Below the pieces are notes generated by a model. It searched no databases. It was not told the DNA's origin and saw nothing but the letters and a program-made list of their open reading frames with translations. From assembly GCA_945872795.1 (NCBI GenBank), contig CAMCAZ010000015.1, positions 1-61,281 on the forward strand: a stretch of DNA of 61,281 bases, written 5' to 3'. The DNA comes from Chryseobacterium gleum. Its GTDB lineage: Bacteria > Bacteroidota > Bacteroidia > Flavobacteriales_F > PHOS-HE28. Of the stretch, positions 25,108 to 60,534 are shown piece by piece. Made by a program: the position numbers and the translations under genes. The stretch's first letter is position 1. Every line of letters starts with the position of its first letter.

Positions 25108-26976
25108 TTATTCGGAGTCCTCGTCGTCGTTGTCCTTGTCGTGCTTCCTGCTCTTGGAAGCGCGCTCCTTGTTCTCCATGGCGCTCTTCAGGTCGCTCAG
25201 CACGCTGAGGTCACCGAGGGTGCTCTTCTCCACTTTGTCGTTCACGCTCTTCACCGAGGTGCCGGCGGGGCTTGCGCCCTCCTTGCGGGCACCGCGCTTG
25301 GCGGGTGCGCTCTCGATGGGCTCCTCACCCTCTTCGAAGGTGCGGGTGTGGCTCAGCACGATGCGGCGGGCCTCACCGTTGAACTCCAGGACCATGAACG
25401 GAAGCTTGTCCTCCATGTCGGCCTTGGAACCGTCGGCCTTCTTCAGGTGCTTGGCGGTCACGGTGCCTTCCACGCCGTAAGCGAGGCTCACCACGAAGTT
25501 CTGACCGGCACGACCCGTGATCGTTCCTTCATGGACGCTGCCCGGGGTGAACACGTTCGAGAACACTTCCCATGGGTTCTCCTCCACTTGCTTGTGGCCG
25601 AGGCTCAGGCGACGGTTCTCCTTGTCCACTTCCAGTACCATCACCTCCACTTCATCACCCACGTTGCAGAACTCGCTCGGGTGCTTGATGCGCTTGGTCC
25701 AGCTCAGGTCGCTGATGTGGACCAGACCATCCACGCCCTCCTCCAGCTCGGCGAAGATGCCGAAGTGGGTGAAGTTGCGGACCTTGGCCGTGTGCTTGGA
25801 ACGCACAGGGTACTTGAACTCGATGTCGGCCCAAGGGTCGGCGGCGAGCTGCTTCATGCCCAGGCTCATCTTGCGCTCTTCGCGGTCGATGTTCAGGATC
25901 ACGCACTCGATCTCCTGTCCCTCCTTCAGGAAGTCCTTCGGGCTGCGCAGGTGCTGGCTCCAGCTCATCTCGCTCACGTGCAACAGGCCTTCCACACCGG
26001 GGGCCACTTCCACGAACGCGCCGTAGTCGGTGATGACCATCACCTTGCCTTTCACCTTGTCGCCAGCGTTGAGCTCGGCGCTCAGGGCATCCCAGGGATG
26101 CGACTGCAGCTGCTTCAGGCCCAGTGCGATGCGCTTCTTCTCGTCGTCGAAGTCCAGGATCACGACGTTGATCTTCTCGTCCAGCTTCACCACCTCCTCG
26201 GGGTGGCTCACGCGACCGTAGCTCAGGTCGGTGATGTGGATCAGGCCGTCGACACCGCCCAGGTCCACGAACACGCCGTAGCTGGTGATGTTCTTGACGG
26301 TACCCTCCAACACCTGACCTTTCTCCAGGCCACCGATGATCTGCTTCTTCTGGGCTTCCAGTTCGGCTTCGATCAGCGCCTTGTGCGAGACCACCACGTT
26401 CTTGAACTCCTGGTTGATCTTCACGACCTTGAACTCCATGTTCTTGCCCACGAACTGGTCGTAGTCACGGATGGGCTTCACGTCGATCTGGCTGCCGGGC
26501 AGGAAGGCCTCGATGCCGAAGACGTCCACGATGAGACCGCCTTTCGTGCGGCACTTCACGTAGCCCGTGATGATCTCGTTGGTCTCCATGGCATGGTTCA
26601 CCTTGCCCCAGGCATTGTGCACGCGGGCCGTCTTGTGGCTCACCACCATCTGACCGCCTCGGTCCTCCTGCTTCTCGATGTAGACCTCCACCTGGTCACC
26701 GATCTTCAGATCGGGTTTGTAGCGGAACTCACTGACGGGGACCACACCCTCGGACTTGTAGCCGATGTTGATCACCACTTCCTTCTTGTTCATGCCCACC
26801 ACGGTACCCATGAGCACTTCCTTCTCGGAGATGCTGCTGAGGGTGTCCTCGTAGGCCTTCTCCATCTTCTCGCGGTCCGCCGCGGAGATGGTCTTCTTGT
26901 CATCCTCGATGCCCGCCCAATCGAAATCGGCTGGTGGTTCGGCGAAGGTGACCTTGTTGTTCTCGACTACTGACAT
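25108..26976 (-). CDS. rpsA: 30S ribosomal protein S1
   Basis: A 622-residue RNA-binding ribosomal protein that helps dock mRNA on the 30S subunit. Six S1/OB repeats are recognisable, for example GTVVGMNKKEVVINIGYKSE, VKNITSYGVFVDLGGVDGL, VMVITDYGAFVEVAPGVEGL and VRNFTHFGIFAELEEGVDGL. The last ~80 residues are low-complexity and charged, ending in an acidic tail (DKDNDDEDSE). S1 matters particularly in this phylum because most mRNAs here lack Shine-Dalgarno sequences. A leader of ~125 nt separates the start from an exact -7 box at 27105-27112 and could hold autoregulatory structure. Confidence 0.95.
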   Translation of the reverse strand: MSVVENNKVTFAEPPADFDWAGIEDDKKTISAADREKMEKAYEDTLSSISEKEVLMGTVVGMNKKEVVINIGYKSEGVVPVSEFRYKPDLKIGDQVEVYIEKQEDRGGQMVVSHKTARVHNAWGKVNHAMETNEIITGYVKCRTKGGLIVDVFGIEAFLPGSQIDVKPIRDYDQFVGKNMEFKVVKINQEFKNVVVSHKALIEAELEAQKKQIIGGLEKGQVLEGTVKNITSYGVFVDLGGVDGLIHITDLSYGRVSHPEEVVKLDEKINVVILDFDDEKKRIALGLKQLQSHPWDALSAELNAGDKVKGKVMVITDYGAFVEVAPGVEGLLHVSEMSWSQHLRSPKDFLKEGQEIECVILNIDREERKMSLGMKQLAADPWADIEFKYPVRSKHTAKVRNFTHFGIFAELEEGVDGLVHISDLSWTKRIKHPSEFCNVGDEVEVMVLEVDKENRRLSLGHKQVEENPWEVFSNVFTPGSVHEGTITGRAGQNFVVSLAYGVEGTVTAKHLKKADGSKADMEDKLPFMVLEFNGEARRIVLSHTRTFEEGEEPIESAPAKRGARKEGASPAGTSVKSVNDKVEKSTLGDLSVLSDLKSAMENKERASKSRKHDKDNDDEDSE

Positions 26977-27197: not shown

Positions 27198-27205
27198 TAC
27201 CTTTG
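27198..27205 (+). promoter_or_regulatory. Bacteroidetes-type -7 box for ispH
   Basis: TACCTTTG matches TAnnTTTG exactly. Transcription would begin near 27210-27213, so a start codon at 27203 (TTG) would lie upstream of the mRNA. This pushes the ispH start to the TTG at 27299. Confidence 0.5.
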
Positions 27206-27298
27206 GCGTTCGGGCTGCGCGGCCTTCAACTTCGGACGACCCTGAGTGTCGACGATGCCGGAGCGCAGCCGAACGATCGCACCAACGCCACGACCGCC

Positions 27299-28543
27299 TT
27301 GCGCAGCTTCACCATCCCCTCCCACTACCGCAGCGAGCTCATCGGGCGCCTGAAGGCCTTCCGTAAGGCGCAGGACCCCAAGAAGAAGGACCTCTCGCCC
27401 ACCCTGCTGGATCTGGGGCCGGTGCGCTTCGTGTTCGCCCGGCACTTCGGCTTCTGTTATGGGGTGGAGAACGCCATCGAGATCAGCTACCGGGCCCTGG
27501 AGGAGAACCCCGGCAAGCGCATCTTCCTGCTGAGCCAGATGATCCACAACCCGGCCGTGAACGACGACCTCACCAGCCGGGGCATGCGCTTCATCCAGGA
27601 TACACACGGGCAGATGCTCATGGACTGGAGCGAGATCACGGCGGATGACACCGTGATCATCCCCGCCTTCGGCACCACACTGCAGACCGAGGAGAAGCTC
27701 AAGGCCATCGGCATTGACCCGCTGAAGTACAACACCACCTGCCCCTTCGTGGAGAAGGTGTGGAACCGCAGCGCCCAGCTGGGCCAGAAGGACTATACGG
27801 TGGTGATACACGGCAAGGCGGCCCACGAGGAGACCCGCGCCACCTTCAGCCATACCGCCGCCGGTGCGCCCGCCGTGATCGTGAAGGACATGGCCGAGAC
27901 GCAGGAGCTGGGCCGTATCATCCTGGGCGAACTGCCGCTTGAGCGCTTCCACGAGCTCTTTGGCACGCGTTGCACACCGGGCTTCGACCCCGCCAAGGAC
28001 CTTGCCCGCATCGGGGTGGTGAACCAGACCACCATGCTGGCCACCGAGACCCAGGCCATTGCCGATCACCTGAAGCAGGTGATGGTGCGCAAGCATGGCG
28101 AGGCGGACATCAAGGCCCACTTCGCGGACACACGCGACACGCTCTGCTACGCCACCAACGACAACCAGGACGCCACCAACGAACTGCTGAAGGTGGAAGC
28201 TGATCTGGCGCTGGTGGTGGGCGGCTACAACAGCAGCAACACCAGCCACCTGGTGGAACTGCTGGAGCACAAGTTCCCCACCTACTACATCAAGGACGAG
28301 GGCGAGATCCTCAGCGCGGACACCATCCAGCACTTCAACTACCCGGAGCACAAGCTGGAGAGCACGAGCAATTGGTTGCCGGTCCTGAGCGGAGTCGAAG
28401 GACGGCGACCCATCACCATCATCCTCACCAGCGGCGCCAGTTGCCCGGACACCTTGCTGGACAAGGTGATGCTGAAGGTGCTGGGCTTCGTGGAGGGGGT
28501 GAAGGATCCGGTGGATACCGTAGATGCGATCGTGAGCGCTTGA
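27299..28543 (+). CDS. ispH: 4-hydroxy-3-methylbut-2-enyl diphosphate reductase
   Basis: Iron-sulfur enzyme making IPP and DMAPP, the last step of the MEP isoprenoid pathway. The 414-residue length fits the long IspH form. The cluster-binding cysteines lie in FGFCYGVENAI (Cys53), NTTCPFVEKVW and SGASCPDTLL; TFSHTAAG, VVNQTTMLA and GGYNSSNTSHL are also present. There is no ATG; the TTG at 27299 gives MRSFTIPSHYRS, the family-like N-terminus, and lies downstream of the promoter box. The open frame extends back to a TTG at 27203. Residues ~362-369 (LSGVEGRR) come from a 22-bp palindromic repeat inserted in frame just before the last cysteine motif. Confidence 0.92.
   Translation: MRSFTIPSHYRSELIGRLKAFRKAQDPKKKDLSPTLLDLGPVRFVFARHFGFCYGVENAIEISYRALEENPGKRIFLLSQMIHNPAVNDDLTSRGMRFIQDTHGQMLMDWSEITADDTVIIPAFGTTLQTEEKLKAIGIDPLKYNTTCPFVEKVWNRSAQLGQKDYTVVIHGKAAHEETRATFSHTAAGAPAVIVKDMAETQELGRIILGELPLERFHELFGTRCTPGFDPAKDLARIGVVNQTTMLATETQAIADHLKQVMVRKHGEADIKAHFADTRDTLCYATNDNQDATNELLKVEADLALVVGGYNSSNTSHLVELLEHKFPTYYIKDEGEILSADTIQHFNYPEHKLESTSNWLPVLSGVEGRRPITIILTSGASCPDTLLDKVMLKVLGFVEGVKDPVDTVDAIVSA
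28382..28403 (+). repeat. Dispersed palindromic repeat inserted in frame in ispH
   Basis: A 22-bp unit beginning GTCCTGAGCGGAG and ending TCGAAGGAC, with 5-bp complementary ends (GTCCT/AGGAC). It encodes LSGVEG in the ispH frame, a peptide I recognise from many proteins carrying this class of dispersed repeat. A second, longer copy is at 60388-60417. Confidence 0.6.
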
Positions 28544-60387: not shown

Positions 60388-60417
60388 CCCTGAGCGGAGC
60401 AGAGCGGAGTCGAAGGG
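60388..60417 (+). repeat. Second copy of the dispersed palindromic repeat
   Basis: CCCTGAGCGGAG at the start and GAGTCGAAGGG at the end match the unit inside ispH (28382-28403). Here the core is lengthened by a 10-bp partial duplication (GAGCGGAGCA then GAGCGGAGTC). This copy is intergenic. Confidence 0.55.
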
Positions 60418-60534
60418 TGCGAGGGGCACGCCCAAACAACCCGCATTCCCGTTGCGCACTCGTTGCGTTCGTAGCAGCTTGCCCCGGGCTTGAACCGGGG
60501 TTGCGGTAGAGCATTCCTCCCGATCTTCGCCCTC

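Follow-up and report, generated by a model that had tools for sequence, protein, structure and literature searches.

An 18-bp REP-like palindrome in frame in ispH of an uncultured Flavobacteriales bacterium, and complementary flanks at some of its copies

The best documentation of palindromic repeats lying in frame within genes comes from Rickettsia and a set of REP-rich genomes. The RPEs are dispersed palindromic repeats that occur in frame in many genes and are tolerated there as extra peptides, as described in passages of PMC10969869 and PMC3733652; they are about 150 bp long with a conserved peptide, and among the shorter ones RPE-4 and RPE-6 are equated with CGTC repeats (passages of PMC3733652). 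According to excerpts of the latter source (Di Nocera 2013, PMC3733652), the CGTC REPs are short imperfect hairpins without a dedicated transposase, which are found inside genes, including those for DNA synthesis and repair, and in Bacteroidetes. They have the tetranucleotide CGTC (or TGTC/CCTC) at one end, a stem of 8–9 bp with A-T in the first two positions and a loop of 4–5 nt (same excerpts). In yeast, template switching at quasipalindromes homogenises arms, inverts spacers and produces clustered amino-acid changes in coding genes (parts of PMC8604942), and PMC8794818 appears to deal with the same subject. Topic searches of the literature yielded, among the papers listed, no kinds beyond those discussed here.

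The unit described here is only 18 bp long and lies in replication, tRNA-charging, Fe-S and isoprenoid genes of a Flavobacteriales lineage. It is like the RPEs in being inserted in frame where orthologues are without it (ispH, sufD, valS and a second dnaE-type gene) and differs from them, as judged from their descriptions, in its length, its host and in being read in five frames over both orientations. As with the CGTC REPs, no dedicated transposase was seen adjoining its copies at 50 Y1_Tnp loci (about half of 107 matches), and a TGTCA[CT] tag stands 5' of the core in 19 phylum-wide copies; phylum-wide, T at position -4 and C at -3 occur in 19/19, G at -5 and T at -6 in 84% each. Unlike in the CGTC REPs, the tag is missing at the ispH copy, where the five bases 5' of the core are CCGGT, and is rare among 69 copies of the genus and its class, three of which have GTCAC directly 5' of the core. 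The fold differs as well, since the 22-bp form as single-stranded DNA has 5 outer pairs and a 12-nt loop (-1.8 kcal/mol, z -0.15, which is unremarkable) instead of a stem of 8–9 bp and a loop of 4–5 nt. From GTAG REPs and the RAYT REPtron it is set apart because no GTAG tag stands out among the copies and no RAYT gene flanks them at the 50 Y1_Tnp loci. The unit works like RPE and CGTC repeats and is probably derived from the CGTC kind, although we do not call it a member. Its core may already be part of the consensus sequences drawn in PMC3733652. Eight strings of 14 to 16 bases taken from the unit and its variants were not found in the paper texts searched, a search that does not reach figures, that consensus included.

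The insertion in ispH and its history

The window, i.e. the whole stretch of 61,281 nucleotides that was analysed, comes from the draft genome of an uncultured Flavobacteriales bacterium (G000; 102 contigs, 3.3 Mb). Other genomes, contigs and loci are given by our own numbers (G, C and L). The features around the insertion are:

27203–28543, forward strand: ispH (lytB) open reading frame, 4-hydroxy-3-methylbut-2-enyl diphosphate reductase, long form; intact, 446 aa, Pfam LYTB (IspH) match 1.9e-63
28376–28383, forward strand: left arm TTGCCGGT, imperfect complement of the right arm, local alignment score 14
28382–28403, forward strand: 22-bp unit GTCCTGAGCGGAGTCGAAGGAC with complementary ends GTCC/GGAC
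28384–28401, forward strand: 18-bp conserved core CCTGAGCGGAGTCGAAGG, in frame inside the Ala codon after WLP, read as LSGVEG
28402–28408, forward strand: right arm ACGGCGA (CGAAGCG in close relatives), resembling the reverse complement of the left arm, a weak resemblance for the ispH copy alone

The initial annotation, which had placed a 22-bp unit in frame in this gene, is thus confirmed, with an intact reading frame and a clear family match. The alignment of close homologues begins at about residue 31, and a search of the G000 genome gave a single match and no second ispH. With the insert excluded, dN/dS against G449, G009 and G010 is 0.15–0.18, and among relatives 0.10–0.13 (four pairs); outside the insert, the gene is under purifying selection.

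The unit had been credited with adding eight residues, LSGVEGRR, but the net gain is six, as VLSGVEGRR replaces AKR. Its position directly before SGASCPD holds, whereas the label of that stretch as the third cluster-cysteine motif has to be dropped: compared with the solved chain 4h4c, SGASCPD aligns weakly with AGASAPD, and the conserved motif with a cysteine lies earlier, at DTLCYATN; this cysteine we take to be a cluster ligand. The insert falls between aligned stretches, where there are 36 residues in the query versus 11 in 4h4c, and it sits in a length-variable stretch of the protein.

For its borders, 42 IspH proteins from fetched loci were aligned, 34 from the genus itself and 8 from other families of its class, leaving out matches without a fetched locus and a second copy in G018. 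The unit is absent from 40 of them, as had been expected of other IspH proteins (39 are six residues shorter, L066 five). These relatives do not share the residues with divergent codons but lack them altogether, so the insert is a lineage-specific gain of 18 nt. The two proteins with the unit are those of G000 and G449: WLP-AKR-P (or a variant) has become WLP-VLSGVEGRR-P in the former, and the latter reads WLP-AFDSAQAER-P, which is the reverse orientation of the 18-bp unit at the identical Ala codon. Both insertions are a net gain of 18 nt with no target duplication, and the target without an insert, GCGAAGCGC, already forms a tiny palindrome.

On a codon tree of 32 ispH sequences of the genus, from which the insert had been removed, G449 groups with G018 (bootstrap 99) and both then with G009 and G010 (100), with G000 outside; G018, G009 and G010 are empty. 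The insert requires a minimum of two changes on this tree, and a clade of G000 and G449, a pair picked because both have the insert, is rejected on this single gene tree with p-AU 0.0057. The simplest reading is that there were apparently two independent insertions in opposite orientation at one ispH codon, which makes the gene a natural replicate, as far as one gene tree can tell. The AU test speaks against an insertion that G000 and G449 inherited from a shared ancestor, and a single gain followed by losses in G018 and on the G009/G010 branch needs three steps. In G018 there are two ispH matches, G018:C40 and G018:C38, which are 89% and 90% identical to the query; with a contamination of 5% in this genome, the second could belong to a different organism.

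The genome being a draft of 102 contigs and the insert being known from the assembly alone, one might think of an assembly or binning artefact; yet the reading frame is intact, the same codon also holds an insertion in an independent genome, and like insertions recur in other genomes and genes, making an artefact barely credible.

Copies in the genome, the phylum and other genes

Within the window, 3 matches with up to three mismatches were observed vs 0.05 expected. Besides the ispH copy, they are:

26246–26263: match inside an open reading frame, which we take to be that of ribosomal protein S1; probably fortuitous
60388–60417, forward strand: composite copy, CCCTGAGCGGAGCAGAGCGGAGTCGAAGGG adjoining GTGCGAGGGGCACGCCC

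The latter had been noted as a longer, intergenic copy of the same unit. The copy is real, but instead of being simply longer it is a composite of CCCTGAGCGGAGC plus AGAGCGGAGTCGAAGGG, intergenic going by the listing of reading frames there. Rfam gave no match at gathering score in the window. The second window copy (60399–60440) and that of L016 (contig C96) share the flank GTGCGAGGGGCACGCCC, and GGGCGTGCC-like flanks adjoin copies in other species, which suggests a larger dispersed repeat.

The whole G000 genome holds 16 places for the unit vs 1 for a control read backward; at least one match of this search, L008 (presumably fabI), which has three mismatches, looks like ordinary coding sequence. 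The strict consensus CCTGAGCNNAGNCGAAGG has 5 copies in G000 and is found in 30 of the 45 genomes of the genus, up to 47 times, and in none of them with the backward control; the remaining 15 are without it. A looser pattern, CCNGAGCNNAGTCGANGG, matches 81 of 395 genomes of the phylum and its control once. The exact 22-mer is present in 67 stretches of the genome_contigs collection (about 0.03 expected by chance, by our own estimate), in records labelled Endozoicomonas, Niastella, Pedobacter, Flavobacterium, Ignavibacteria, Chloroflexi, Cyanobacteria, Acidobacteriaceae, Phycisphaerales, Peregrinibacteria and others, and the exact 18-mer in 67 stretches of viral contigs. A chance frequency, which would have spoken against the initial annotation, is far exceeded in genome, genus and phylum.

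Being short, dispersed and partly inside genes, the unit could be imagined as a DNA uptake or recognition sequence kept for its function, with the place in ispH incidental. With 5 strict copies in a 3.3-Mb genome and none in 15 of 45 genomes of the genus, it is too rare and too patchy for this, and we regard such a role as extremely improbable.

The length of 18 bp is a multiple of three, and the unit is free of stop codons in 5 of 6 frames; peptides from all five open frames, over both orientations, were seen (PERSRR, LSGVEG, PSTPLR, FDSAQ and LRLRSG). Positions 3 and 16 of the core covary among the 150 places listed for the phylum, with T-A at 131, C-G at 12, T-G at 3, T-T at 2, A-A and A-C at 1 each and C-A at 0 (Fisher p 3e-15, the places being several per genome and not independent).

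The suggestion of the initial annotation that a dispersed palindromic repeat enters coding regions in frame and is tolerated is borne out by further genes of the genus, many of them usually essential, in which the unit is tolerated in frame. The first ten unit-bearing reading frames all matched protein families: the replicative dnaE (G000, contig C95), sufD, hsdR, valS, the second dnaE-type gene (L045, L135), a DNA methylase, a mannosyltransferase-like protein and two proteins with secretion-tail domains. In dnaE, sufD and L045 the unit is inside the matched domain, and in the remaining seven it is beside or between domains. From the second ten, nine matched family models; for L492 no family model matched. 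These include an NRPS in G446 and, in G449, ispD, ispG, ispH, ileS, mtaB, a ligase-associated helicase, a GH3-type protein (best model OlsH) and an aldehyde dehydrogenase, with ileS slightly under the model cut-off, the helicase and GH3 models well under it and two of these loci cut at stretch ends. For the aldehyde dehydrogenase most models stop at the unit. That ispD, ispG and ispH of G449, all of one pathway, have the unit is probably coincidence given 15 copies. Tandem in-frame expansions are also seen in G449 (L483 and L481), with PFDPAQGKPFDSAQGKPADSAQGRPADSAQGRPAE in mtaB and LSGVEGVSGVEGVSG in ileS.

In sufD, the unit is absent from 23 rows (22 genomes) covering the site, and the net gain is 18 nt versus the closest relatives. 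The valS site is common to G019 and G004 and empty in the other 25 rows covering it (row L293 is poorly aligned there); G044, placed with G019 by the ispH tree, is without the unit, and the two copies could be one old insertion or two. The dnaE copy of G000 lies in a linker which varies in length between species, so that the insertion borders are blurred. This linker seems to collect repeats: in relatives (L334, L335, L340, L347, L348) it holds other apparently repeat-derived peptides such as KVNGEWSMANG...HSPFTNSHSP. Across species, the second dnaE-type gene has the unit at no fewer than three sites, and at one of them the orientation in G006 is opposite to that in G004 and G019. Near the G019 site of this gene, G002 and G017 have different in-frame hairpins (L242, L253), and that of G017, TGTCACTCCGAGCGCAGCCGAGGAGGACA, resembles a REP of the CGTC type. 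Repeats like the 18-bp unit can go on supplying proteins with short additional peptides, as related species with the unit in other essential genes illustrate.

Inverted arms and the possible origin of the copies

Beyond the 18-bp core, the flanks are complementary to each other at some copies, with a sequence that differs by locus. These inverted arms, which are new relative to the initial annotation, were scored by local alignment of 20-nt flanks after removal of near-duplicates and rows containing N, with a threshold of at least 16. In a first set from the genus and its class, 8 of 67 copies reached it vs 0.84 by permutation (maximum 4 in 500 runs) and 1.37 for random centres in the same loci (maximum 4 in 100 runs); the genus accounts for 7/54 (0.61 by permutation, maximum 4 of 500) and the class outside the genus for 1/13. 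The enrichment recurred in a second, later genus set of 85 copies, 42 of them independent: 14 of these reached the threshold, where permutation gave 0.70 and random centres 0.54 (maximum 4 each). For the genus in total this makes 21 of 96 copies, most copies being without long arms. Enrichment is weak in IMG/VR contigs (4/69 vs 0.84, permutation maximum 5) and among the named 22-mer copies (4/57 vs 0.49, maximum 4), where one of the four (L452) is a second instance of a locus counted before.

The folding energies calculated for the hairpins as single-stranded DNA are -15.0 kcal/mol (z -4.7) in the dnaE-type gene of G019, -9.6 (z -2.65) in valS of G019 and -6.2 (z -0.87) in ispH.

Three coding copies can be polarised, each combining an ancestral arm with a derived one. 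The second dnaE-type gene of G019 has ancestral coding sequence in its left arm and a new right arm, and in G007 it is the other way round, with an ancestral right and a new left arm; both score 22, which with sliding boundaries is reached by 0/21 and 0/25 empty relatives, respectively. In valS of G004, a copy missed by the search pattern as its core is mutated, the arms are complementary at 14 of 15 bases and score 26, the left one coding for a conserved KGW; the maximum in 25 empty rows is 16. Elsewhere the picture is less clear. The valS arms of G019 score 15, equalled by 2 of 25 empty relatives, and five of the eight coding copies score 10–12, equalled with sliding boundaries by 13–20 of 20–25 empty relatives. 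For ispH of G000, the score of 14 is reached by 1/40 empty homologues with a fixed and 5/40 with a sliding boundary, and the copy of G449 has no arms (score 6).

A derived arm complementary to an ancestral one is what replication template switching would leave, and in this the dnaE-type copies of G019 and G007 and the valS copy of G004 are like template-switch products, a likeness that is absent or unclear at the other tested coding copies. The opposite orientation at one dnaE-type site (G006 versus G004 and G019) fits the spacer inversion described for template switching in part of PMC8604942. In contrast to the situation in yeast, where the process acts on existing inverted repeats, the arms here are tied to a dispersed hairpin and occur in bacteria. 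They connect a dispersed repeat with templated mutagenesis in a way that can be tested, and they bear on how REP families without a transposase spread.

It could be argued that the unit merely prefers pre-existing palindromes and that the arms are older than the insertion, since arms are frequent around the copies of the genus and the empty ispH target is itself palindromic. The arms are, however, missing in the empty relatives at both dnaE-type sites, and no empty valS row exceeds 16 as compared with 26 in G004. The scores of the empty relatives refute pre-existing palindromes at these three polarised sites, and as a general explanation we find this preference improbable.

We hold it to be the probable explanation that a REP-like palindrome of 18 bp was inserted and that flanks were template-switched. 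The insertions, in both orientations and repeatedly at one site, and the derived arms of three copies are observed. The ispH feature is, on this reading, one copy of a very short, dispersed, imperfect palindrome resembling CGTC/TGTC-tagged REP repeats, which entered a length-variable stretch of ispH as an 18-bp unit and was probably kept there because the frame is preserved and only one of six frames has a stop codon. The tip of the hairpin would promote switching of the polymerase template, the nascent strand folding back or switching and copying its own flank, and such copying would rewrite the protein next to the insert. Least certain is the arrival of the unit itself, which may occur by template switching to another copy and not by a dedicated transposase. 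The initial proposal of a spread by gene conversion is half right: local templated copying of flanks is observed, and a spread of the unit itself by this route is putative. A stronger version, in which a transposase-free parasite, an 18-bp hairpin neutral to the frame, spreads and remodels solely by replication template switching, recurs at the same codon and rewrites its neighbours, we consider rather unlikely. The presence of the unit in many phyla points to an enzyme acting in trans or to horizontal transfer, and for this spread template switching offers no explanation.

An enzyme of this kind might be a RAYT (IS200/IS605-like) transposase that mobilises the unit in trans as a non-autonomous REP. 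RAYTs insert single-stranded hairpins without target duplication, and no target duplication is present at the ispH insertions. Y1_Tnp proteins occur in 31 of 39 genomes searched, with one in G000, copy number correlates weakly with the Y1_Tnp count (rho 0.40, p 0.06, n 23), and inverted doublets of fixed spacing resemble REPINs; REPs are moreover often associated with RAYTs (passages of PMC3733652). On the other hand, the expected linkage did not materialise at the loci covered, about half of the 107 Y1_Tnp matches: there was no credible copy within about 1.5 kb of 30 Y1_Tnp loci at up to 3 mismatches (one hit with three mismatches, L077, is probably chance) or of 20 further loci at up to 2 mismatches. 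That no GTAG tag stands out also speaks against a RAYT, as do copies in G001, G003 and G007, in which no Y1_Tnp was detected (these genomes being 66–84% complete), and arms that copy the local flank would be left unexplained. Mobilisation by a RAYT is accordingly a possible but doubtful alternative to insertion of a REP-like palindrome with template-switched flanks.

The inverted doublets mentioned above contain a GGAGCCG variant at a distance of 38–40 nt (L031, L140, L146, L162, L495, L496, L497, L500, L515, L517 and L522). Their spacers differ in sequence, several of them starting like CCARACTCTCTTTT, and the fixed spacing is REPIN-like; in two more, L142 and L505, the distance is 49 nt.
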